Origin: Xanthomonas sp. AM6
Lineage (GTDB): Bacteria > Pseudomonadota > Gammaproteobacteria > Xanthomonadales > Xanthomonadaceae
NCBI RefSeq assembly: GCF_025665335.1
Contig: NZ_CP106869.1
Location: 3,870,501-3,934,500 of the forward strand
Length of the DNA stretch: 64,000 bases
Direction of reading: 5' to 3'
Part shown: positions 52,517 through 64,000 of the stretch, piece by piece
How positions within the stretch are numbered: the first letter of the stretch is position 1
Layout of the letters: each line of letters starts with the position of its first letter
The notes under the pieces: generated by a model
What the model saw: only the letters and a program-made list of their open reading frames with translations
The model's database searches: none
What the model was told of the DNA's origin: nothing
Translations under genes and position numbers: made by a program

Positions 52517-53428
52517 TTAGGCGTAGGCCACGGCCCCGTAGGCCACCGGCGCCGATTGCGCGGCCGAATCGAAGCTCACCCACTCCCAGGCGGCCTGCTC
52601 GGCGAGCAGCGCGCGGACCAGCTTGTTGTTCAGCGCGTGGCCGGATTTGTAGCCTTCGTAGGCGCCGAGGATGGCGCCGCCGGCCAGGTACAGGTCGCCG
52701 ATCGCGTCGAGGATCTTGTGCCGCACGAACTCGTCGGCGTAGCGCAGGCCGTCGTCGTTGAGCACGCGGAACTCGTCGAGCACGATGGCGTTGTCCATCG
52801 ACCCGCCCAGGCCCAGGTTGCGCTCGCGCATGTACTCCAGGTCGCGCATGAAGCCGAAGGTGCGCGCGCGGGAGATTTCCTTGATGTAGGCCATGGTCGA
52901 GAACTCGATCTCCTGGCGCGACTGCTTGGCCGGGATCATCGGGTGGTCGAACTGGATGGTGAAACCGAGCTTGTAGCCGTCGTACGGCTCGAAGCGGGCG
53001 ATCTTGTCGCCGTCGCGCACTTCCACCGGGCGCTTGATGCGGATGAAGCGCTTGGGCCTGTCCTGCTCGACGATGCCCGCGGACTGCAGCAGGAACACGA
53101 ACGGGCCGGAGGAACCGTCCATGATCGGCAGTTCGGCCGAGGACAGCTCGACGATGGCGTTGTCCACGCCGAGGCCGGCCATCGCCGACATCAGGTGTTC
53201 CACGGTCTGGATCTTGGCCTCACCGCGGCTGAGCCCGGTGCACAGCGTGGTCTCGGTGACCAGTTCGGCATCGGCCGGCACTTCCACTGCCGGTTCCAGG
53301 TCGACCCGGCGGAACACGATGCCATGGTCGGCGGGCGCCGGACGCAGCGTCATGTACACCTTGTCGCCACTGTGCAGGCCCACGCCGGTGGCGCGGATCG
53401 TGTTCTTGAGGGTGCGTTGCTGGGTCAT
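52517..53428 (-). CDS. lpxC: UDP-3-O-acyl-GlcNAc deacetylase LpxC
   Basis: LpxC is the zinc enzyme for the committed step of lipid A synthesis. The 303-residue product has TVEHLMSAM (first zinc histidine and the catalytic glutamate region), the [11 protein letters not shown] and GHALNNK motifs that bring the other zinc and catalytic histidines, and the usual beginning [22 protein letters not shown]. It is the last gene of the dcw arrangement but separated from ftsZ by an intrinsic terminator, so it has its own promoter. The stop is 150 bases from the convergent dciA stop. Confidence 0.98.
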
Positions 53429-53476
53429 GGGAGACAGTCTGGGAACGTCCGCTCAGACGGGAACTGAACGGAATTG

Positions 53477-53508
53477 AGAATATCACGCGTTTAGCCAAAT
53501 TTTAACAA
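53477..53508 (-). promoter_or_regulatory. lpxC promoter
   Basis: On the minus strand TTGTTA (53508-53503) and GATATT (53484-53479) are separated by 18 bases in an AT-rich patch just past the ftsZ terminator. This gives a leader of about 45 bases to the lpxC start. Confidence 0.55.
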
Positions 53509-53561
53509 GACGGTCACAGCGTCCTATTTGCGCAACGCTGGCGCAGCCGGCGTCGCGGTCG

Positions 53562-53593
53562 CAAAAACCTGCCGGGTCGAGGCGACCCGGCAG
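53562..53593 (-). terminator. Intrinsic terminator of ftsZ
   Basis: CTGCCGGGTCG and CGACCCGGCAG (53569-53593) form a perfect eleven-base-pair stem with a three-base loop; on the minus strand it is followed by GTTTTTG. It lies about 80 bases past the ftsZ stop and separates the dcw cluster from lpxC. Confidence 0.9.
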
Positions 53594-53672
53594 CAAAGGA
53601 CACGGCGCACCGCTCGGGCGGACACTCCCGAACGGCGGTGTTGCGGCCGGCGCATGGCCGGCCTTGGCGACG

Positions 53673-54893
53673 TCAGTCGGCCTGGCGGCGCAGGAACGCC
53701 GGGATGTCCAGGTAATCGTTGGGCAGATCGGCCGCGGCCGGCGCCGGTGCGGACGACCCCATCGCATCGCTGCTCGGACGGCGCAGGCCCAGGCCCATCG
53801 CCCCGCCGACCGCCTTGGACACGGCGTCGCCGCCATGTTCGAAGTCGCCGAATTCCGGCTGGCCGGTGGTGGCGTTGCGGACCAGCTTGATCGGCGCGCG
53901 CTGCTCCGGACGCTGCGCCTGGCGCGACACCGCACGGTTCAGGCCGGTGGCGACCACGGTGACGCGGACCTCGTCCTGCATGTCCGGGTCGAGCACGGTG
54001 CCGACCACCACGGTCGCGTCTTCGGAGGCGAAGCCTTCGATGGTGCGGCCGATCTCGTCGAACTCGGACATGGTGAAGTCCGGGCCGGCGGTGATGTTGA
54101 CCAGGATGCCGTTGGCGCCGGCCAGGTTGACGTCGTCCAGCAGCGGGTTCTGGATCGCCGCCTCGGCCGCCGCCTGCGCGCGGTCGTCGCCGCGGGCCGA
54201 ACCGGTGCCCATCATCGCCAGGCCCATTTCCGACATCACCGTGCGCACGTCGGCGAAGTCGACGTTGATCAGGCCCGGACGCACGATCAGGTCGGCGATG
54301 CCCTGCACCGCGCCCTGCAGCACGTCGTTGGCGGCGCGGAACGCCTGGATCATGGTGGCGTTGCGGCCGAGCACGGTGATCAGCTTCTCGTTGGGGATGG
54401 TGATCAGCGAGTCGCAGTGCTGGCTCAGTTCCTCGATGCCCTTCAGCGCGACCTGCATGCGCCGGCGGCCCTCGAACGGGAACGGCTTGGTGACCACGGC
54501 CACGGTCAGGATGCCCATCTCCTTGGCCAGCTGCGCGACCACCGGCGCGGCGCCGGTGCCGGTGCCGCCGCCCATGCCGGCGGTGATGAACACCATGTCC
54601 GCGCCCTGCAGCGCGTCCATGATGCGTTCGCGGTCTTCCAGCGCGGCCTGGCGGCCGACTTCCGGGTTCGCGCCGGCGCCCAGGCCCTTGGTGACGTTGG
54701 TGCCGAGCTGCAGCTGCAGCTTGGCGCCGCAGTTCTTGATCGCCTGCGAGTCGGTGTTGGCGGTGATGAATTCCACGCCGTCCACGCTGCTGCTGACCAT
54801 GTGCGCGACCGCGTTGCCGCCGCCGCCGCCCACGCCGACCACCTTGATTACCGCGTTGGGTGCCATCTTTTCAATCAGTTCGAAATGCGCCAT
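53673..54893 (-). CDS. ftsZ: Cell division GTPase FtsZ
   Basis: FtsZ polymerises into the division ring at midcell. The 406-residue protein has the tubulin GTP-binding signature GMGGGTGTGAAP, the T7 loop with NVDFADVRTVM, and a conserved C-terminal peptide (DYLDIPAFLRRQAD) that binds FtsA and ZipA. Starts MAHFELIEKMAPNAVIKVVGVGGGGGNAV at 54893. It is separated from ftsA by a 270-base gap occupied by a GGGATTC-bounded element, unlike the close ftsA-ftsZ spacing in E. coli. Confidence 0.98.
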   Translation of the reverse strand: MAHFELIEKMAPNAVIKVVGVGGGGGNAVAHMVSSSVDGVEFITANTDSQAIKNCGAKLQLQLGTNVTKGLGAGANPEVGRQAALEDRERIMDALQGADMVFITAGMGGGTGTGAAPVVAQLAKEMGILTVAVVTKPFPFEGRRRMQVALKGIEELSQHCDSLITIPNEKLITVLGRNATMIQAFRAANDVLQGAVQGIADLIVRPGLINVDFADVRTVMSEMGLAMMGTGSARGDDRAQAAAEAAIQNPLLDDVNLAGANGILVNITAGPDFTMSEFDEIGRTIEGFASEDATVVVGTVLDPDMQDEVRVTVVATGLNRAVSRQAQRPEQRAPIKLVRNATTGQPEFGDFEHGGDAVSKAVGGAMGLGLRRPSSDAMGSSAPAPAAADLPNDYLDIPAFLRRQAD

Positions 54894-54910
54894 GTCCGTG
54901 TCCTCTTTGA

Positions 54911-55163
54911 GCCGGGATTCGGGATCCGGGATTGGGGATTCGGAACAGCTCCGATCCTCGTTCCCGCCTCTCCGTCCGGCGAGTGTTGTTGTTTGGAAGC
55001 CGGGATCGGGGATCCGGATCGGGCACGATCGCCCTTACTCCGTTGCCCGCTCCGCGGCGGAAATCACTACAAAAGTATCGCCTGCCTTCTCTCCGCTCTC
55101 CGCTCTACCGCTGTCTTGCTGTCGCTGTTGCTCTTACGAATCCCAAATCCCGAATCCCGGCTC
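54911..55163. repeat. GGGATTC-bounded element 1 (ftsZ-ftsA junction)
   Basis: The left end is GCCGGGATTCGGGATCCGGG followed by ATTGGGGATTCGG (54911-54943); the right end is GAATCCCAAATCCCGAATCC followed by CGGCTC (55138-55163). They are inverted arrays of the GGGATTC heptad. Another GCCGGGATCGGGGATCCGG array lies inside at about 54999-55017. The element fills the whole ftsA-ftsZ gap and ends just before the ftsA stop. Confidence 0.85.
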
Positions 55164-55164
55164 C

Positions 55165-56400
55165 TCAAAACTCGCCGCGATACCAGTTCTTCAATTTCTT
55201 GAACAAACTGCCGGCGCGCCCGGTCGGCAGCGACGGGCGGCGCGGGTGTTCGATCTGGCTGCCCATCAGCAGCAGGCCCACGCCGGTGGCGTGCACCGGG
55301 TTGCCGACCACTTCGCCCAGGCCGGTGACGTGCTGCGGGATGCCCACGCGCACCGGCATCTGCACCATTTCCTCGGCCAGTTCGACCACGCCTTCCATCT
55401 TCGAGGCGCCGCCGGTCAGCACCATGCCGGCACGCACCAGCTCCTCGAAGCCGGAGCGGCGCAGTTCGGCCTGCACCATCTCGAAGATCTCCTCGTAGCG
55501 GCCCTGCACCGCCTGCGCCAGCGAGTGGCGCGGCATGCGCCGCGGCGGGCGGTCGCCGACGCTGGGCACCTGGATGCTTTCCTCGGCGGTGGCCAGCTGC
55601 GCCAGCGCGCAGGCGTAGCGCACCTTGATCTGCTCGGCTTCCGGGGTCGGCGTGCGCAGCATGTGCGCGATGTCGTTGGTGACGTGGTCGCCGGCGATCG
55701 GCAGCGAGGCGGTGTGGCAGATCGCGCCCTGCACGAACACCGCCAGGTCGGTGGTGCCGGCGCCCATGTCCACCAGCACCACGCCCAGCTCGCGCTCGTC
55801 GGCGGTCAGCACCGCCACCGAGGACGCCAGCGAGGACAGGATCAGGTCGTCCACCTGCAGGCCGCAGCGCTGCACGCACTTGCTGATGTTGGCTGCGGCC
55901 GACTGCGCGCACACCACCAGGTGCGCGTGCACCTCCAGGCGCACGCCGGTCATGCCGACCGGGTTGCGGATGCCTTCCTGCGAATCGTCGAGCACGTACT
56001 CGCGCGGGATCGCGTGCAGGATGCGCTGGTCGGCCGGGATCGCCACCGCCTTGGCCGCTTCCAGCACCCGGTCCAGGTCGTTCCAGGTCACTTCGCCGTC
56101 GCGGATCGGCACGATGCCGGGGGAGTTCTTGCACTGCACGTGGTTGCCGGAGATCGACGCGTACACCGAGCGGATCTCGCAGCCGGCCATCAGCTCGGCT
56201 TCCTCGACCGCGCGCTGGATCGACTGCACGGTGGATTCGATGTCCACCACCACGCCGCGCTTGAGCCCGCGCGATTCGTGCGAACCGATGCCGATCACCT
56301 CGATCGGGTTGCCGGGCGAATACTCGCCGACCAGCGCGACGACCTTGGAGGTGCCGATGTCCAGTCCAACGATGAGGGATTTGTCGCCTTTGCGGTTCAT
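55165..56400 (-). CDS. ftsA: Cell division protein FtsA
   Basis: FtsA is an actin-like protein that tethers FtsZ to the membrane and recruits later division proteins. The 411-residue product has the phosphate loop VGLDIGTSKVVALVGE, the second ATP motif VVLVDMGAGTTDLAVF, and ends in FKKLKNWYRGEF, the amphipathic membrane-targeting helix. The start overlaps the ftsQ stop by four bases (ATGA). A GGGATTC-bounded element lies immediately upstream, inside the end of ftsQ. Confidence 0.97.
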   Translation of the reverse strand: MNRKGDKSLIVGLDIGTSKVVALVGEYSPGNPIEVIGIGSHESRGLKRGVVVDIESTVQSIQRAVEEAELMAGCEIRSVYASISGNHVQCKNSPGIVPIRDGEVTWNDLDRVLEAAKAVAIPADQRILHAIPREYVLDDSQEGIRNPVGMTGVRLEVHAHLVVCAQSAAANISKCVQRCGLQVDDLILSSLASSVAVLTADERELGVVLVDMGAGTTDLAVFVQGAICHTASLPIAGDHVTNDIAHMLRTPTPEAEQIKVRYACALAQLATAEESIQVPSVGDRPPRRMPRHSLAQAVQGRYEEIFEMVQAELRRSGFEELVRAGMVLTGGASKMEGVVELAEEMVQMPVRVGIPQHVTGLGEVVGNPVHATGVGLLLMGSQIEHPRRPSLPTGRAGSLFKKLKNWYRGEF

Positions 56401-57218
56401 GTCTTGGAGCCGGGATTTGAGATTCGGAATTGGGGATTGGTCGAAGCGACGGGGCGTGGAATGCGGGGAAGGTCGGCGGAGGCGGAGCGTTGCGGAGCCG
56501 GTTTCTTTGCCGATCCCGAATCCAATCCCTGCCGTTCGACCGTGAACCCATTCGTGTAACGCAGATCGGCGCGGGCCAGCGGCGCCTGGTCCGGTTGCAG
56601 CAGTTGCGGCAGCACGCGGGCGAAGCGGGCCAGGCGGGCGCGGGCGTCGTCGCGGCCAACCACGATCTGCACGCCGTCGCCCAGCTGCAGCGACCAGCTG
56701 CCGCGCGCGTCCATCGCCACGCCGTTGACCGGCAGCCCCGCCGGCGCGAACAGCGCGCGCGATTCGTTGTACAGCGCGACCACGTCCTGCGCCTTGGCAT
56801 CCGGCCCGGCCAGCTGCGGCAGCGCCATGCCGCGCAGCTCGCTCGGCAGCGCGAAGATGCGGCCCTGCTCGGACAGCATGCGATCGCTGCCCCAGCGCGC
56901 GAACGGGCGGTGTTCGGTGACGCGCACTTCCAACACGTCCGGCCAGCGCTTGCGCACCCGCGCGCTCTCCACCCACGGCAGCCGCTCGATCGCGTCCTGC
57001 GCGTCCTGCAGGCGCACCGCGAAGAAGCCGCGGCGCGCGTACGGCAGCACCACCTGGCGCAACTGTTCGGCCGGCACCCGCTTGAAATCGCCGCTGACCT
57101 GCAACCGGCTCAGCGGCCAGCGCTCGGCGCCGACCCAGCCGTTGAGCACCGCCACCACCGGCAACGCCACCAGCGCCAGCGCCAGCAGCCAGGCGAGGAT
57201 GCGCAGGAGGGCGCTCAT
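56397..57218 (-). CDS. ftsQ: Cell division protein FtsQ
   Basis: FtsQ links early and late division proteins in the periplasm (FtsQLB complex). The 273-residue protein has a short cytoplasmic start, a membrane helix (ILAWLLALALVALPVVAVLNGW), a POTRA domain (LSRLQVSGDFKRVPAEQLRQVV) and the FtsQ beta domain ending about YTNGFTVERQGLDSGSA. The last 44 residues (from about 230, including RIPRPVASTNPQFRISNPGS) are coded by a GGGATTC-bounded repeat element and probably do not belong to the ancestral protein. The ATG at 57218 begins MSALLRILAWLL; a longer frame upstream is also repeat-coded. Confidence 0.95.
   Translation of the reverse strand: MSALLRILAWLLALALVALPVVAVLNGWVGAERWPLSRLQVSGDFKRVPAEQLRQVVLPYARRGFFAVRLQDAQDAIERLPWVESARVRKRWPDVLEVRVTEHRPFARWGSDRMLSEQGRIFALPSELRGMALPQLAGPDAKAQDVVALYNESRALFAPAGLPVNGVAMDARGSWSLQLGDGVQIVVGRDDARARLARFARVLPQLLQPDQAPLARADLRYTNGFTVERQGLDSGSAKKPAPQRSASADLPRIPRPVASTNPQFRISNPGSKT
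56407..56534. repeat. GGGATTC-bounded element 2 (inside the end of ftsQ)
   Basis: Left end GAGCCGGGATTTGAGATTCG followed by GAATTGGGGATTGG (56407-56440); right end GATCCCGAATCCAATCCCTG (56512-56531). The whole element is in frame in ftsQ and codes its last residues. It ends just before the ftsQ stop/ftsA start. Confidence 0.8.
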
Positions 57219-57230
57219 GCGGCACTCCGT

Positions 57231-57344
57231 GCCGCGGGATTCGGGATTGGGAATTCGGGATTCGCGCAAGACACGCACGCGAGCGCACCGGCAGCGCGAC
57301 GCTGCCGCTGTGCGACTCCCCAATCCCGAATCCCGAATCCCGGC
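57231..57344. repeat. GGGATTC-bounded element 3 (ddl-ftsQ junction)
   Basis: Left end GCCGCGGGATTCGGGATTGG followed by GAATTCGGGATTCG (57231-57264); right end CAATCCCGAATCCCGAATCC followed by CGGC (57321-57344). It lies fully between ftsQ and ddl and ends two bases before the ddl stop codon. The interior holds an imperfect GCAGCGCGACGCTGC hairpin. Confidence 0.85.
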
Positions 57345-57345
57345 T

Positions 57346-58305
57346 TCACAGCGTCTGCTCCAGCACCCGCCACACCAGCTCTTCGAAACCGATGCCGGCC
57401 TGGCGCGCGGCCTTGGGCACCAGCGAGTGGCTGGTCATGCCCGGGGCGGTGTTGGCTTCCAGCAGCGCGAAGTCGCCGCTGGTGCCGTCGCGCATCACGT
57501 CCACGCGGCCCCAGCCGCGGCAGCCGGCGGCGCGGAACGCGGCCAGCGCCAGTTCGCCCAAGGCGCGCTCGGCGTCGCCGTCCAGGCCCGGGCACAGGTA
57601 CTGGGTGTCCTCGGCCACGTACTTGGCGTGGTAGTCGTACCACTGGCCCTTGGGCACGATGCGGATCGACGGCAGCGCGGTGTCGCCGAGGATCGCCACG
57701 GTCAGTTCGTCGCCGACGATCATCTGCTCCATCAGCAGCTCGCCGTCGTAGCGCGCGGCCAGCGCCACCGCCTCGTCCAGCTGCGCCGGCTCGAACACGC
57801 GGGTCACGCCGACGCTGGAGCCTTCGTTGGCCGGCTTGACGATCACCGGCAGGCCCAGCTGCGCGGCCGCCGCATGGATCGCATCGGCCTGCGCGGTCGC
57901 CGCCAGGCGCACGTAGCGCGGCGTCGGCAGGCCGAGCGACAGCCACACCTGCTTGGTGCGCACCTTGTCCATGCTCAGCGCCGAGCCGAGTACCGGCGAA
58001 CCGGTGTACGGCACGCCGAACGCCTCCATCAGGCCCTGCACGATGCCGTCTTCGCCGCCGCCGTTGTGGCCGTGCAGCACGTTGAACACGCGGTCGAAAC
58101 GCTTGTCCACCAGCGCCTGCGCCAATGCCGGGATGCCGTCCACCGCGACCGCGTCGACGCCGCGCGCGCGCAGCGCCTCGAGCACGTTGCGGCCCGAATC
58201 CAGCGACACCTCGCGTTCGCTGGAGGTGCCGCCGAGCAGCACCGCGACGCGGCCGAACACGGCCGGGTCGGTGTGGCGCGGCGGCGCGAAGGTCGGCGCG
58301 CTCAT
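57346..58305 (-). CDS. ddl: D-alanine-D-alanine ligase
   Basis: Ddl joins two D-alanines for the peptidoglycan stem peptide, in the cytoplasm. The 319-residue ATP-grasp enzyme has [22 protein letters not shown] at the N-terminus, the serine loop [11 protein letters not shown], and the metal-binding [25 protein letters not shown]. Start 58305 overlaps the murC stop by four bases (ATGA). Its position between murC and ftsQ is the ddlB position of the dcw cluster. Confidence 0.97.
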
Positions 58306-59738
58306 GCCTTCGCCTCCGCGACGAAACCATCCTGGGCGATGTGCTGGGCGACGTAGCCGATGTCGCCGGCGCCCATCATCAGCAGCAGGTCGCCGTCCTG
58401 CAGCACGTCCGGCAGCACGTGGCTCAACTCGGCGACCTGGCCCACCACCACCGGCTCGCTGCGCCCGCGCGCACGGATCGCGCGCGCCAGCGAGCGCGCG
58501 TCGGCGCCGGGGATCGGGGTTTCGCCGGCCGGGTAGACCTCGCTGAGCACCAGCGCGTCGACTTCCGACAGCACCGCAGCGAAGGCGTCGAACTGGTCGC
58601 GGGTGCGGCTGTAGCGGTGCGGCTGGAACGCGACCACCAGGCGCCTGTCCGGCCAGCCGCCGCGCGCGGCGGCGAACACGGCGGCCAGTTCGCGCGGATG
58701 GTGGCCGTAGTCGTCGACCAGGCGCACGCGCGCGCCGCTGGCGGTGACCACGTCGCCCAGGTCATTGAAGCGACGGCCGATGCCGGCAAAGCTCTGCAGC
58801 GCGCTGGCGATCGCCGCCGGCGCCACGCCCAGCTGCCAGCCGATCGCGGCGGCGGCCAGCGCATTGAGCACGTTGTGCCGGCCCGGCAGCGCCAGCGTCA
58901 CCGGGGTGCTGCTGCCCTCGGGCAGGCGCAGGGTGAAGCGCATGCGCGGGCCGTCCTGGACCACGTCCTCGGCGCGCACGTCGGCGTTCTCGCTGAGCCC
59001 GTAGCTCATCACGTGGCGCGGGGTCTTGGCGGCCAGCGCGGCCACTTCCGGATCGTCGATGCACAGCACCGCCAGGCCGTAGAAGGGCAGGCGCTGCAGG
59101 AACTCGGCGAACGCGGCCTGGACCCGGGCGAAGTCGTTGCCGTAGTTCTCCAGGTGATCGGCGTCGATGTTGGTGATCACCGCGATCAGCGGGTTCAGGC
59201 GCAGGAAGCTGCCGTCGCTCTCGTCGGCCTCGGCCACCAGCCACTGGCCGCCGCCGAGCTTGGCGTTGGCGCCGGCGGCGAGCAGCTGGCCACCGATCAC
59301 GAAGGTCGGGTCCAGCCCGCCTTCGCTGAGCACTGCCGCGGCCAGGCTGGTGGTGGTGGTCTTGCCGTGGGTGCCGGCCACCGCGATGCCGCGGCGGAAG
59401 CGCATCAGCTCGGCCAGCATCGCCGCGCGCGGCATGATCGGGATGCGCTGGCTGCGCGCCTCCATCAGTTCCGGGTTGTCGTCGCGGATCGCGCTGGACA
59501 CCACCACGCAGTCGGTGCCGAGCACGTTGGCCGCCGAATGCCCGCGCATCACCCGCGCGCCGAGCTTTGCCAGGCGCCGCGTCGCCGCGTTGTCGGCGTT
59601 GTCCGACCCGGAGACCTCGTAGCCCAGGGTCAGCATGACCTCGGCGATGCCGCTCATGCCGGTGCCGCCGATGCCGACGAAGTGCACGCGCGGGAACGCA
59701 CGGACCAGGTCGCCGGTGTCGTGGAGACGGCGGATCAT
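58302..59738 (-). CDS. murC: UDP-N-acetylmuramate-L-alanine ligase
   Basis: MurC adds the first L-alanine to UDP-MurNAc using ATP. The 478-residue protein has [17 protein letters not shown], the P-loop [24 protein letters not shown], and [10 protein letters not shown]. Start 59738 has a strong AGGAGG and overlaps the murG stop by four bases; the stop overlaps the ddl start. Cytoplasmic. Confidence 0.98.
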
Positions 59739-61012
59739 TGGGCACCTCCTGCGGAGGTGCCGGGATTGGGGATTCGGGATTCGGGATTGGCGGCGTCGGC
59801 GGCACGTTGCCGCGGCGCATCGCCCTGTACGGATGTCTGCATAGTGTCCTGCTGGTGCTCCTGCTCGTTGCGAATCCCCAATCCCGACTCCCGACTCCCG
59901 GCCTCTTCCAGAATGATGTCCGCGATCCGCTCGGCCGCATCCGGCTTGGCCAGGCGGCGGGCGGCGTCGGCCATCGCCAAGCGCTTGCCCGGGTTGCCGA
60001 GCAGGTCGCGCAGCACGCCCTGCAGGTTGGCGGCCAGGGCGTCGTCCTGCTTTAGCAGCACGGCGGCGCCGCGCTCGACCAGGTATTCGGCGTTGCGGGT
60101 CTGGTGGTCGTCGACCGCGGCGGCGAACGGCACCAGCACGCTGCCGATGCCGGCCGCGCACAGTTCGGCCAGGGTCGAGGCGCCGGCGCGGCACACGGTC
60201 AGGTCGGCCCAGGCGTAGGCGGCGGCCATATCGCCGATGAAGGCTTCGACGCTGGCGGCGACGCCGGCGTCGGCATAGGCCTGGGCCGCTTCGTCGCGCA
60301 GCTTTTCGCCGCACTGGTGGCGCACTTCGACCTGCGCGCCGAGCGCGGCCAGCGCGCGCGGCAGCGCCTGGTTAAGCGCGCGCGCGCCCTGGCTGCCGCC
60401 CAGCACCAGCAGGCGCACCGCGCCCTCGCGCCCGGCGAAGCGCTGCGCCGGCAGCGGCAGCGCCGCGATCTCGGCGCGCACCGGGTTGCCCACCGCTTCC
60501 TCGCGGGCGGCGAAGCTGCCCGGGAACCCGGTCAGCACGCGCCGCGCCACGCGCGAGAGCACCTTGTTGGTCAGGCCCGGGGCGCGGTTCTGTTCGTGCA
60601 CCAGCAACGGCAGTTTCAGCAGGCGCGCGGCGATGCCGCCGGGGCCGGCGGCGAAACCGCCGAAGCTGACCACCGCGCGCGGCGCGCGCCGGCGCAGCAC
60701 GAAGCCGGCGGCGCGGATCGCGCGCATGACCCGTACCGGCGCACCGAGCAGCGCCAGCGCACCCTTGCCGCGCAGGCCGCCGATCTCGATGGTGTCGATC
60801 TCGATGCCGTGCTGCGGCACCAGTTGGGTTTCCATGCGCCCAGCCGCGCCCAGCCACACCACCGGCACGCCGCGCGCGCGCAGCACCTTGGCCACCGCCA
60901 GCGCCGGGAAGATGTGCCCGCCGGTGCCGCCGGCCAGGATCATCACCGGGCGCAGCGCGGCATCCGCAACGGATGCGGTCGCGGTGGCGGCCAGCGGCGC
61001 GGTCGCGCTCAT
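59735..61012 (-). CDS. murG: UDP-GlcNAc:lipid I transferase MurG
   Basis: MurG makes lipid II at the inner face of the cytoplasmic membrane. The 425-residue protein has [48 protein letters not shown] and [37 protein letters not shown]. coli MurG is 355 residues; the C-terminal extra part (from about residue 370: [10 protein letters not shown], then [10 protein letters not shown]) is coded by a GGGATTC-bounded repeat element. The conserved enzyme seems to end near [10 protein letters not shown]. The start overlaps the ftsW stop by four bases (ATGA). Confidence 0.97.
59759..59903. repeat. GGGATTC-bounded element 4 (inside the end of murG)
   Basis: Left end GCCGGGATTGGGGATTCGGG followed by ATTCGGGATTGG (59759-59790); right end CGAATCCCCAATCCCGACTC followed by CCGACTCCCGGCC (59871-59903). 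The element is in frame in murG and codes about the last 50 residues except for a short end. Its interior (TGCAT...TGTCCTGCTGG...CTCCTG) resembles that of the element in murF. Confidence 0.85.
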
Positions 61013-62331
61013 CCCAGCCTCCCGAAGGTCGGTTCGACCCGCGGCTGCATGCGGCTGGTGCCGCGCGCCGGGGTGCCGGCCTGGATCGCCGCGGCCACCG
61101 CGCTGGCGCTGGCCTCGCGCGCGGCCTGCAGGTCCTCGGCGCTGTCCACGGTCTGCTTGACCGCCGGTGCCGCCTCGCCGCGCACCTTGGCCACTTGCCG
61201 CTCGGCGCGGTCCAGCTCGTAGGACACGCGCAGCAGCAGGCCCATCGCCACACAGGTCATCAGCACGCTGGAGCCGCCGGCGGAGATCAGCGGCAGGGTC
61301 AGGCCCTTGGTCGGCAGGATGCCCAGGTTGACGCCGACCGAGACGAAGCTCTGCAGGCTGATCCACAGGCCGATGCCGAAGGCGATGTAGCCAGAGAAAT
61401 GCCGCTTCATCTCCACGCAGCGCATGCCCAGCCAGAACGCGCGCCCGACCAGCAGCGCGTACAGCGCGATGATCAGGCACACGCCGGTGAAGCCCAGTTC
61501 CTCGGCGATCACCGAGAAGATGAAGTCGGTATGCGCCTCGGGCAGGTAGTTGAGCTTCTGCACCGAACCGCCCAGGCCGACCCCGAACAGCTCGCCGCGG
61601 CCCACCGCCATCAACGCGTTGGACAGCTGGTAGCCGGAGCCGAGCTGGTCGGCCCACGGGTCCAGGAACGAGGTGATGCGGCGCAGCCGGTAAGGCTCCA
61701 GGATCGCGATGAAGGCGAACACCGGCAGGCCGATCACGATCGGCATCGACATCCGCGGCAGGTTGACCCCGCCCAGCACCAGCATGCCGGCGGTGATCGC
61801 CAGCAGCAGCGTGGAGGAGCCGAAGTCCGGCTGCATCAGCAGCAGCGCGACCAGCGCCACCGCCACGCCCAGCGGCTTGAGCATCGCCGGCCAGGTGGCG
61901 TTGACCTCGTCGCGGAAGCGCACCAGGTAGCTGGACAGCCACACGATGTACAGCACCTTCACCGCTTCCACGGTCTGGAACTTGGAGATGCCCAGGTTGA
62001 TCCAGCGCCGCGCGCCGTTGACGCTGCTGCCCAGCCCGGGCACGAACACCACGATCAGCAGGCCGAAGCACGCCAGCAGCAGCAGCTGGTTGTACTGCTC
62101 GATGTTCTTCAGCTCGGTGCGCATGGTCCAGATCGCCAGGCCGATGCCGCCGGCCAGGAACAACAGATGCCGGGTGAGGTAATAGAACGGGCTGACGGTC
62201 AGCTCGATCGAGCTGGAGCCGACCATCACCACGCCCAGCGAGGCCAGCGCCACCACCGCGCCGAGCAGCCACGGGTCGTAGCGGCCGCCGATGGCCTCCA
62301 ATCGGGTTGCCTGGCGTGCGGCGTCGTTCAT
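61009..62331 (-). CDS. ftsW: Lipid II polymerase FtsW
   Basis: FtsW is the SEDS-family septal peptidoglycan glycosyltransferase. The 440-residue product is an integral membrane protein with about ten helices (for example [21 protein letters not shown] and [16 protein letters not shown]) and the conserved loop [23 protein letters not shown]-like sequence ([19 protein letters not shown]). A basic/alanine-rich cytoplasmic C-terminus (after [12 protein letters not shown]) is longer than usual. The start at 62331 shares one base with the mraY stop (TGATG); the stop overlaps murG. Confidence 0.97.
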
Positions 62332-63416
62332 CAGCGCACCTTCAACGTGGCCAGGCCGACCAGCACCAGCACCACCGAGATGATCCAGAAACGCACGATC
62401 ACCCGCGGCTCGGGCCAGCCCTTCAGCTCGAAATGGTGGTGGATCGGCGCCATGCGGAACACGCGCTTGCCGGTGAGCTTGAACGAGGCGACCTGGATCA
62501 TCACCGACAGCGTCTCGATCACGAACACGCCGCCCATGATCACCAGCACCAGTTCCTGGCGCACGATCACCGCGATGGTGCCGAGCACCGCGCCCAGCGC
62601 CAGCGCGCCGATGTCGCCCATGAACACCATCGCCGGGTAGGTGTTGAACCACAGGAAGCCCAGGCCCGCGCCGGCGATCGCCGCGCAGATGATGATCAGT
62701 TCGCCGGCGCCGGGGATCGAGGGGATCTTCAGGTAGGCCGAGAACACCGCGTTGCCCGAGGCGTAGGCGAACACGCCCAGCGCGCAGGCGACCAGCACCG
62801 TGGGCATGATCGCCAGCCCGTCAAGGCCGTCGGTCAGGTTGACCGCGTTGGAGAAGCCGACGATCCAGAAGTAGGCGATGGCGACGAAGCTGATCCCGGC
62901 CAGCGGCAGCGCGATCGACTTGAACATCGGGATGTAGAAGGTGATCGCCGCCGGCACGTCGGCGGTGTAGTAAAGAAACAGACCCGCGGCCAGGCCGAAG
63001 ATCGACTGCAGCAGGTACTTCCAGCGCGACTTCAGCCCGTTCGGGTCGCGGCGCACGATCTTGATCCAGTCGTCGTACCAGCCGATCACGCCGAACGCCA
63101 GCATCACCGCCAGCACCAGCCACACGTAGCGGTTGCGCAGGTCGCCCCACAGCAGCACCGACAGCAGCACGGTGAGCAGGATCAGCGAGCCGCCCATGGT
63201 CGGCGTGCCGGCCTTGGAGAAGTGGGTCTGCGGGCCGTCCTGGCGGATCGGCTGGCCGCCCTTGAACTGCGCCAGCTTGCGGATCATCGCCGGGCCCAGC
63301 CACAGCGACAGGAACAGCGAGGTCAGCGCCGCGAGGATGCCGCGGAAGGTGAGGTAGCCGAACAGCCCGAACAGGCTCTCCAGCTGCTGCAGCCAGCGGG
63401 ACAGTTCAAGCAGCAT
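62331..63416 (-). CDS. mraY: Phospho-MurNAc-pentapeptide translocase MraY
   Basis: MraY transfers phospho-MurNAc-pentapeptide to undecaprenyl phosphate to give lipid I. The 361-residue protein has about ten membrane helices and the catalytic motifs [19 protein letters not shown] and [13 protein letters not shown]. The ATG at 63416 ([19 protein letters not shown]) is the usual start. The gene overlaps murF by 11 bases at its start and ftsW by one base at its end. Confidence 0.98.
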
Positions 63417-64000
63417 GCGACGCCTCCTCACCCTGCGCCAGCAACGCGCTCACGATCTTGTCCATGGCGCTGCCGCGCGAGCCCTTGACCAGGAGGGTGG
63501 CCGGGATCGGGGATTCGGGATTCGGGATTGGGAGGGGCGCAACGCCAGCGGACGCCACACCGGTGCTCTCATGCATGTGTTCTGTTTCCTGCTCTTGATC
63601 CTGCTTTTCCCGGGTCCCGCGTCCCGCGTCCCGCGTCCCGGCCACCGCGTCCAGATCGCGGCGCAAGGCGGCGATCAGCGCCGCATGGCTGTCGAACACG
63701 CGGCCGTTCTCGCCGAACGCCTGCGCGGCGATGGCGCTGAGGGGGCCCAGCGCGTACAGCCGGGTCAGCCCGGCGTCGCGCGCGCGGCGGCCGCCGCTGG
63801 CGTGCAGCGCCTCGGCGCCGTCGCCGAGTTCGCGCATGTCGCCCAGCACCAGCCAGCGCTCGCCGCCGGCGGCGGCCAGCGCGTCGATCGCCGCGGCCAG
63901 CGAACCGGGGTTGGCGTTGTAGCTGTCGTCGATCAGCACCGCGCCGCCGCGCAGCGTGTGCGCGATCTGCCGGCCCGGCACCGGCTGCACCTGCGCCAGG
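63406..64000 (-). CDS. murF: MurF, UDP-MurNAc-tripeptide:D-Ala-D-Ala ligase (3' part)
   Basis: Only the C-terminal 197 residues lie in the window; the gene continues beyond 64000. MurF adds D-Ala-D-Ala to the UDP-MurNAc tripeptide. [15 protein letters not shown] is the MurF signature, followed by [11 protein letters not shown] and, near the C-terminus, [16 protein letters not shown]. Between [12 protein letters not shown] and TLLVKGSR lies an insertion of about 45 residues ([13 protein letters not shown]... to [10 protein letters not shown]), coded by a GGGATTC/GGGACGC-bounded element. These two segments are nearly adjacent in ordinary MurF proteins, so the element interrupts the C-terminal domain in frame. 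Confidence 0.95.
63499..63643. repeat. GGGATTC-bounded element 5 (insertion inside murF)
   Basis: Left end GCCGGGATCGGGGATTCGGG followed by ATTCGGGATTGGG (63499-63532); right end CCCGGGTCCCGCGTCCCGCG followed by TCCCGCGTCCCGG (63610-63642), a GGGACGC variant of the heptad. The interior includes TGCATGTGTTCTG and CCTGCTCTTGATCCTGC, similar to element 4. The frame through murF stays open across all 145 bases. Confidence 0.85.

Follow-up and report, generated by a model that had tools for sequence, protein, structure and literature searches.

The window analysed here is a stretch of 64,000 nucleotides from Xanthomonas sp. AM6 (bases 3870501-3934500 of the source genome, a single 4.92-Mb contig in which the whole-genome counts below were made). 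It ends in a cluster of division and cell wall (dcw) genes on the minus strand, assigned by Pfam matches and gene coordinates: the 3' part of murF (63406..64000, by Pfam), mraY (62331..63416), ftsW (61009..62331), murG (59735..61012), murC (58302..59738), ddlB (57346..58305), ftsQ (56397..57218), ftsA (55165..56400) and ftsZ (53673..54893). Five inverted pairs of G-rich heptad arrays are found in this cluster, at murF, murG/murC, ddlB/ftsQ, ftsQ/ftsA and ftsA/ftsZ, and the intervals given for murG and ftsQ include the element. Generally, an element consists of about four G-rich heptads, a site-specific interior and about four heptads in inverted orientation, which together form a long quasi-palindrome.

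Three of the five elements (murF, murG and ftsQ) are translated in frame, and the ddlB/ftsQ and ftsA/ftsZ elements are intergenic. The murF element (63499..63642; arms 63499-63530, of GGGATTC type, and 63609-63642, of GGGACGC type) interrupts murF about 30 codons ahead of its stop, and the Mur_ligase_C match (Pfam) stops at residue 113 of the 197-aa fragment, ahead of the insert. The murG element (59759..59902; arms 59759-59789 and 59872-59902) is the in-frame 3' tail of murG, and its end adjoins the overlapping murC start; the Pfam match in MurG stops at residue 363 of 425, and the element-coded tail lies beyond the domain. Likewise, the ftsQ element (56409..56534; degenerate, with arms 56409-56439 and 56512-56534) is the in-frame 3' tail of ftsQ, its end meets the overlapping ftsA start, and the element-coded part lies beyond the FtsQ_DivIB_C match (Pfam), which stops at residue 220 of the 273 of FtsQ. 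The ddlB/ftsQ element (57231..57344; arms 57231-57267 and 57314-57344) follows the ddlB stop and precedes the ftsQ ribosome-binding site. The composite ftsA/ftsZ element (54911..55161) begins 3 bases past the ftsA stop codon, with arms at 54911-54941 (GCC and four heptads) and 55138-55161 (three heptads and GGC) and an extra degenerate array at 54999-55015.

A preliminary description of this DNA had reported five elements of one GGGATTC-bounded build at the gene junctions. All five are present, with ends 0-2 bases from those reported, and the remaining genes overlap by 1 to 11 bases as it said. The inverted pairing of the arrays stands, but the build is not uniform, given the GGGACGC arm at murF, the degenerate ftsQ element and the composite one. 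The placing at gene ends also stands, but the murG and ftsQ elements are coding tails and the murF element lies within its gene.

When the elements were folded as RNA, z-scores of -5.96 (ddlB/ftsQ), -4.74 (murG), -3.85 (murF) and -0.57 (ftsQ) were obtained; for the ftsA/ftsZ element the z-score (-0.17) is that of one half alone and says nothing about the whole. Two coding controls scored +1.18 and -2.95, so a z-score near -3 is unremarkable here. In an Rfam scan of 53000-64000, no family was found on the elements, and a match to RF02243 (Xoo8 small RNA; 117.5 bits) lies at 53356-53686 on the minus strand, around the lpxC/ftsZ gap. Two hairpins on the minus strand were noticed by eye, each between an element and the following start codon and each holding the ribosome-binding site in its loop or stem. 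One (59741..59760), with a Shine-Dalgarno-like AGGAGGT, lies between the murG element and the murC start. The other (57219..57235; GCGGCAC-GGA-GTGCCGC, with GGAG in the loop) lies between the ddlB/ftsQ element and the ftsQ start, and by eye its stems vary in several other species yet remain complementary.

A described class of dispersed heptad repeats

In the 64-kb window, GGGATTS occurs 16 times (14 within the five elements) and SAATCCC 13 times (8 within them). Since 20 first-order Markov sequences of the same composition contain 1-9 GGGATTS and 3-13 SAATCCC, it is the clustering in arrays and not the raw count that goes beyond chance. In the whole genome, GGGATTSGGGATTS is found 256 + 233 times and the pattern reversed as a control is absent, and the dispersed, very numerous family of inverted heptad pairs that had been proposed is thus confirmed.

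The anatomy of the family was summarized in 800 kb from each of three genomes, with an arm defined as three or more heptads and the reversed sequence as control. The numbers of arms are 77, 71 and 84 (1, 2 and 1 in the reversed sequence), and exactly four units are present in 50 of 77, 45 of 71 and 59 of 84 of them. Where neighbouring arms are no more than 300 bp apart, 24, 23 and 25 cases are convergent and 3, 2 and 8 same-directed, and none is divergent. Stop triplets at offsets -10 to -7 ahead of an arm, counted regardless of reading frame, number 40 for 77, 24 for 71 and 32 for 83 arms, over a background of 1.4, 1.2 and 1.8 per offset. The earlier wording that the element tolerates, or prefers, gene ends is therefore right as to the preference, which is for bases just past stops, while "tolerates" understates a set of which three in five are translated. 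GGCC or AGCC are the commonest bases directly ahead of arms, and by eye the arms of the source genome run inward as GCAAAAGC. Interiors are heterogeneous, and those that are alike within one genome share a repetitive extragenic palindromic (REP) sequence of another kind.

Some long arrays were also observed. In the source genome, 33 GGGACTC-type heptads form one array at about 1097888-1098118 (G000:C1, L120), adjoining a GGGATTS arm, and a second array has 21 units at 90072-90218. Long uninterrupted arrays also exist in other bacterial families of the same order, in G047, G056 and G046 (GGGATTC, GGGACCG and GGGAATC), and viral contigs contain 45 stretches with three tandem GGGATTS units.

The class is not new, although the preliminary description knew of no account of it. 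Rehm et al. (2015; PMC4692102) reported 186 and 183 arrays of GGGAATC-type heptads in two Xanthomonas genomes. Four is the commonest number of units, and 70 (Xcc) and 75 (Xac) convergent inverted pairs are present; the arrays lie no more than 50 bp from stop codons, on the coding strand, 11% and 7% of them at least partly in Open Reading Frames (ORFs), and 83% are common to Xcc and Xac. The units form quadruplexes in vitro, four were argued to be the quadruplex minimum, and no regulatory role was found. Their heptads (GGGAATC / GGGNATC) correspond to ours in unit, four-unit mode, inverted pairing, place at stop codons and occasional location within ORFs, and tandem GGGANTN far above chance, a four-unit mode, convergent pairs and stop-codon adjacency were all found here. 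However, their search covered GGGAATC-containing (GGGANTN) repeats only, whereas GGGACC and GGGACT types are also included here. The main text of that paper has 0 mentions of ftsZ, ftsQ, murG, GGGACC or gene conversion, and to that extent arm-type matching, trans-species versions, frame keeping and the dcw genes have no counterpart in it. Xanthomonas heptads also serve as variable-number tandem repeat (VNTR) typing loci (PMC6459536, PMC8002079, in the parts available). In the open-licence literature searched, arm-type matching, between-species exchange or dcw sites of heptads were not found. We conclude that the elements are a real feature of a described class, and that, as far as this literature goes, matched arms and exchanged versions are an undescribed pattern; what goes beyond print is the agreement of arm types, versions out of step with their flanks at three of five sites, and frame-keeping inserts in murF, murG, ddlB and ftsQ.

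Several other systems resemble these elements in part, judged from the available portions of the sources. REPs and bacterial interspersed mosaic elements with their REP-associated tyrosine transposases (RAYTs; Nunvar et al. 2010, PMC2817692) are likewise small palindromes in many copies at gene ends, but the Xanthomonas REPs of that study have GTAG heads (GTAGGAGCG...) and no heptads, and the local RAYT loci bear such REPs; a palindrome with a GTAG/GTGG head and cognate to a neighbouring RAYT was not recognised in the elements here, as 0 of 8 RAYT loci have heptads in the stretches searched. Rickettsia palindromic elements (PMC10969869) are palindromes of about 150 bp in frame within unrelated protein genes, and in-frame insertion is also seen here, in murF, murG, the ddlB N-terminus and ftsQ; the likeness is one of description only, and the available text mentions no heptad arms or arm-type switching. 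Enterobacterial repetitive intergenic consensus (ERIC) sequences, other enterobacterial repeats and miniature inverted-repeat transposable elements (MITEs) are intergenic inverted repeats, sometimes intragenic with ORFs, and occur at gene 3' ends (PMC10969869, PMC2759123, PMC2229807). The G-rich heptads of Nostoc, GGGGA(C/T)T, are dispersed near genes as well but form few inverted pairs (PMC4692102). Template-switch homogenisation makes two inverted arms alike, in cases known from the available texts for short imperfect repeats or RNA hairpins and not for tandem-heptad arms (PMC8604942, PMC8794818, PMC7202029).

ERIC and MITE families usually have a conserved core, whereas the interiors here vary from site to site. 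In their shortness, their terminal inverted repeats and the lack of a transposase gene the elements resemble MITEs; a shared interior and an autonomous partner, sought only through Y1_Tnp, were not found.

Occupied sites, empty sites and reading frame

The dcw comparison covers 81 rows, i.e. the window and 80 fetched loci: 33 in the Xanthomonas group (the window, 30 named Xanthomonas, L038 and L051), 36 in the Stenotrophomonas group, 9 in the Pseudoxanthomonas group and three (L096, L097, L099) outside these. L103, named Xanthomonas, was placed with Pseudoxanthomonas by the tree, and rows that share a name (five X. arboricola, two X. hortorum) each represent a separate species in the collection. 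The nearest named row to the window is X. bonasiae L031 (99% identity over codon positions 1 and 2 of seven dcw genes). Some junctions were measured in fewer rows than a group contains, and an element is called paired only when both arms passed the criterion of the script. One record, L090, is titled Bacillus subtilis SK7B5 and falls within Stenotrophomonas in the dcw tree, so it is mislabelled or contaminated.

Empty counterparts of four of the five sites exist in Stenotrophomonas, where the murF site is 6 bp in all 34 measured rows and the intervals are 31-52 bp at murG/murC (36 rows), 14-44 bp at ddlB/ftsQ (32 of 36 rows) and 44-68 bp at ftsQ/ftsA (36 rows). The Xanthomonas-group intervals are 42-246 bp at murF (32 rows), 155-230 bp at murG/murC (32), 17-172 bp at ddlB/ftsQ (33; the 17 bp are the empty sites of L033 and L034) and 47-203 bp at ftsQ/ftsA (33; 47 bp in L038). 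At ftsA/ftsZ an empty length is undefinable, and the Stenotrophomonas spacers are 164-302 bp and array-free. The murF insert is present in 32 Xanthomonas-group rows, with both arms passing the criterion in 9, and an extra in-frame element occurs at the ddlB start in L056, L060, L068, L070, L071, L080 and L082 only. In the Pseudoxanthomonas group, the ddlB/ftsQ site is empty (17 bp) in most rows; L098, L102 and L110 carry elements at some of the same sites and their tree neighbours have none, for which separate gain, over transfer or loss, is the simplest reading. In L094 (Pseudoxanthomonas yeongjuensis), the same in-gene murF site holds an in-frame insert of another palindrome, a GGGGCTTCAGCCCC REP-like doublet seen by eye, so the site seems to take more than one kind of repeat.

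Insert lengths in the Xanthomonas group share a single class modulo 3 at murF (32/32 rows), murG/murC (32/32), murC/ddlB (33/33) and ftsQ/ftsA (33/33), while the intergenic ftsA/ftsZ lengths spread over all three frames (12, 10 and 11 rows). The upstream frame is open across the murG element in 32 of 32 rows and across the ftsQ element in 32 of 32. As the in-gene length stays in frame, each such gene still terminates at its successor's start codon. The ddlB/ftsQ lengths also belong to one class in 30 of 33 rows, though outside the ddlB frame; an N-terminal FtsQ extension is unsupported there, with the ftsQ frame open in 24 of 31 rows and the third frame in 31 of 31.

To the preliminary description the elements looked mobile, a reading that it said would fall if all related strains shared the same sites and no empty ones were found. 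The Xanthomonas rows do have the elements at common sites, which goes against mobility, but empty sites occur in Stenotrophomonas. In 10 comparisons of filled and empty type the flanks are too divergent to define a target-site duplication. No interior is shared between two elements of one genome save through a nested REP of another kind: the four exceptions (G000_5/G000_7, G007_0/G007_13, G011_19/G011_22 and G011_3/G011_22) all match the nested-REP stretch of G000_5 and G000_7. The suggested cognate RAYT was sought as well, and no heptads were found in the stretches searched on both sides of the 8 RAYT loci, where REPs of the GTAGGAGCG or GTGGGAGGGACTTCAGTCCC kind occur instead. A Y1_Tnp gene is present in 18 of 20 genomes of the genus (G000-G019) and missing in G002 and G016, both nearly heptad-free, so its presence tracks heptad counts in the genus, and RAYT, rejected as the direct cognate, may still be an indirect factor. 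Elsewhere, G046 lacks a Y1_Tnp match but contains 52 GGGAATS doublets, and G021 has three Y1_Tnp matches and no heptads. G001 has 31 Y1_Tnp matches, of which the best 21 have one in-frame TAG inside the match.

Arm types and probable exchange of versions

Four heptad types (GGGATTS, GGGAATS, GGGACCS and GGGACTS) vary by species and by element. By exact doublets, the source genome (G000) has 489 GGGATTS, 62 GGGAATS and 13 GGGACCS, G017 has 23, 43 and 342, and G006 has 150, 394 and 0, while G002 and G016 have almost none. The two arms of a pair tend to be of one type. In G007, types agree in 22 of 23 pairs (mean 7.8 and maximum 18 in 10000 shuffles), and in G011 in 20 of 25 (mean 13.8; reached by 5 of 10000). 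At the dcw sites, 104 of 121 elements have matching arms, compared with a mean of 45.5 (maximum 61) in within-site shuffles and 82.7 (maximum 94) in within-genome shuffles.

On the tree, the numbers of type changes in the two single arms and jointly are 14, 11 and 14 at murG/murC, 11, 10 and 11 at ddlB/ftsQ, 6, 4 and 6 at ftsQ/ftsA, 11, 13 and 13 at ftsA/ftsZ, and 4, 4 and 5 at murF, so that joint left and right changes do not exceed those of the busier arm at four of five sites. Six orthologous sites outside the dcw cluster were found, three of the same type and three of different type. For example, both arms are switched in place between G007_22 (TT) and G011_20 (AT), with flanks of 92.5 and 84.7% and an alignable interior. 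The mean alignment excess at the same site is 31.5 for elements of the same type and 4.7 for different types, and 1.7-1.9 between different sites.

Exchange of versions was analysed in 25 clade-2 Xanthomonas rows by comparing each element with its 150-bp flanks, with the heptad-free ftsW/murG junction as control. Pairs in which the flanks reach 95% identity or more and the elements stay below 70% make up 14 of 23 at ddlB/ftsQ, 59 of 96 at ftsQ/ftsA and 60 of 108 at ftsA/ftsZ, and 0 of 21 in the control. The Spearman correlation between flank and element is 0.15, 0.17 and 0.11 at these sites and 0.45 in the control, and the identities at ftsQ/ftsA and ftsA/ftsZ form separate classes (few pairs at 0.7-0.8), whereas those of the control form one. 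Three sites are decoupled from their flanks, murF is not, and murG/murC is in single cases only; purely vertical descent is ruled out at the three decoupled sites and not at murF.

The ftsA/ftsZ elements of the X. hortorum rows L072 and L081 are 0.62 identical between flanks of 0.97-0.99. The ddlB/ftsQ element of X. arboricola L079 is 0.92 identical to that of L059 and 0.90 to that of L071, but 0.47-0.49 to those of the same-named L058, L069 and L084, and the murG/murC element of X. dyei L080 is 0.93 identical to those of L082 and L056 but 0.40 and 0.39 to those of its tree neighbours L059 and L077. Tract edges were read in 14 hand-picked triples and are tight in several of them. For L079, the own-like state begins at -55 or -58 to the left and at +13 or +27 to the right of the ddlB/ftsQ element; for L080, the left edge lies about 13-25 bases and the right edge less than 90 bases from the murG/murC element.

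Origin and maintenance of the elements

We consider it probable that these are ancient REP/MITE-like palindromes which now behave as allelic cassettes, swapped by short recombination tracts and with arms kept alike by mutual copying. Most simply, these gene ends would have acquired their elements early in the history of the Xanthomonas group and retained them since, and hundreds of copies with common ends make an early spread by some kind of transposition still the natural origin. Three of the five sites have several deeply divergent versions, which may pass between species by short homologous-recombination tracts whose edges would in several cases lie only tens of bases from the element. The arms could share a type because a version is inherited and exchanged as a unit. 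Copying from arm to arm, by replication template switching or by gene conversion in a hairpin, may also draw them together and create new matched types.

Several results weigh against this account. In the source genome itself, arm agreement is 17 of 24 against a shuffle mean of 15.8, which is non-significant, because a single type dominates there, and the murF element of the window has arms of unlike type. The seventh base of the heptad is not clearly matched between arms (16/24 vs 15.5; 26/40 vs 19.8, 73/5000; 19/40 vs 16.4), which argues against frequent recent arm-to-arm copying, since this should equalise that base too. Interior and type mostly change together at dcw sites, so replacement of whole versions, and not in-place arm conversion, accounts for most switches, and movement of whole versions by homologous recombination would explain that pattern. 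Decoupling is absent at murF (0 of 25 pairs; Spearman 0.62) and found in only 2 of 14 pairs at murG/murC (0.39). The ftsA, ftsQ and ftsZ flanks are so conserved that "95% identical" takes in quite distant species, and in 2 of 14 triples (L067 ftsA/ftsZ and L070 ftsQ/ftsA) donor-like sites extend far into one flank. A stronger version of the cassette reading, which we put forward tentatively, is a gene-end system with few discrete versions per site, in which heptad arms or conserved gene ends provide the landing homology, a version including the MurG or FtsQ tail is replaced from another species while the operon is otherwise kept, and copying holds the arms in one code.

Among the alternatives, selection on an mRNA hairpin or quadruplex, which would keep the arms complementary by compensatory change as in REP-like regulatory 3' structures, seems unlikely as the main cause, though the hairpin may have some role in the mRNA. 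The matched arms, the four-unit mode (the quadruplex minimum of Rehm et al., PMC4692102), the position just past stop codons and the strong folds of three elements (four were folded in full) are consistent with it. But a change from TT to AT takes transversions in about four units of each arm and has no wobble intermediate, so that copying or replacement is favoured over compensation by point changes; the seventh base is unmatched, the ftsQ element folds no better than shuffles, and Rehm et al. (PMC4692102) found no regulatory role. Old polymorphism is less probable still. Divergent versions would have been present in the Xanthomonas ancestor and sorted differently, with the flanks since unlinked by recombination and no later transfer. 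That versions at one site are still homologous (about 60% identical at ftsA/ftsZ) and fall in discrete classes agrees with this, but the 0.93 identity of L080, L082 and L056 at murG/murC exceeds that of their flanks (0.85-0.92), and such near-identity across distant species points to transfer after speciation.

Equally improbable, in our judgement, is an active MITE- or REP-type element that still spreads as a whole palindrome to new sites with the help of a transposase acting in trans (RAYT or an insertion sequence enzyme). Terminal inverted repeats, high copy number, the empty Stenotrophomonas sites, the occupied L098, L102 and L110 among mostly empty Pseudoxanthomonas rows and the distribution of Y1_Tnp within the genus speak for it; unrelated interiors within a genome, RAYT loci with other REPs in place of heptads, the mismatched genomes G046 and G021 and flanks in which no target duplication is definable speak against it. 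Active transposition is unsupported, and the elements look like long-standing residents. Independent local tandem expansion of a chance heptad, with nothing dispersed, would fit the few arrays that vary in heptad number (up to 33 units) and the use as VNTR markers (PMC6459536, PMC8002079, as available), but it is barely credible and is refuted by the genome-wide counts in hundreds and the convergent pairing, beside the common inner flank GCAAAAGC and the empty reversed-pattern control.

Xanthomonas genomes contain hundreds of such repeats, some of them in use as typing markers, without an accepted account of their spread or uniformity. If exchanged cassettes with one-code arms are the right reading, the elements would be natural, countable records of arm-to-arm copying and short-tract recombination. 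The C-terminal tails of the essential proteins MurG and FtsQ would then come from repeat DNA and be replaced wholesale between species, and typing schemes built on such loci would partly follow exchange, not descent.

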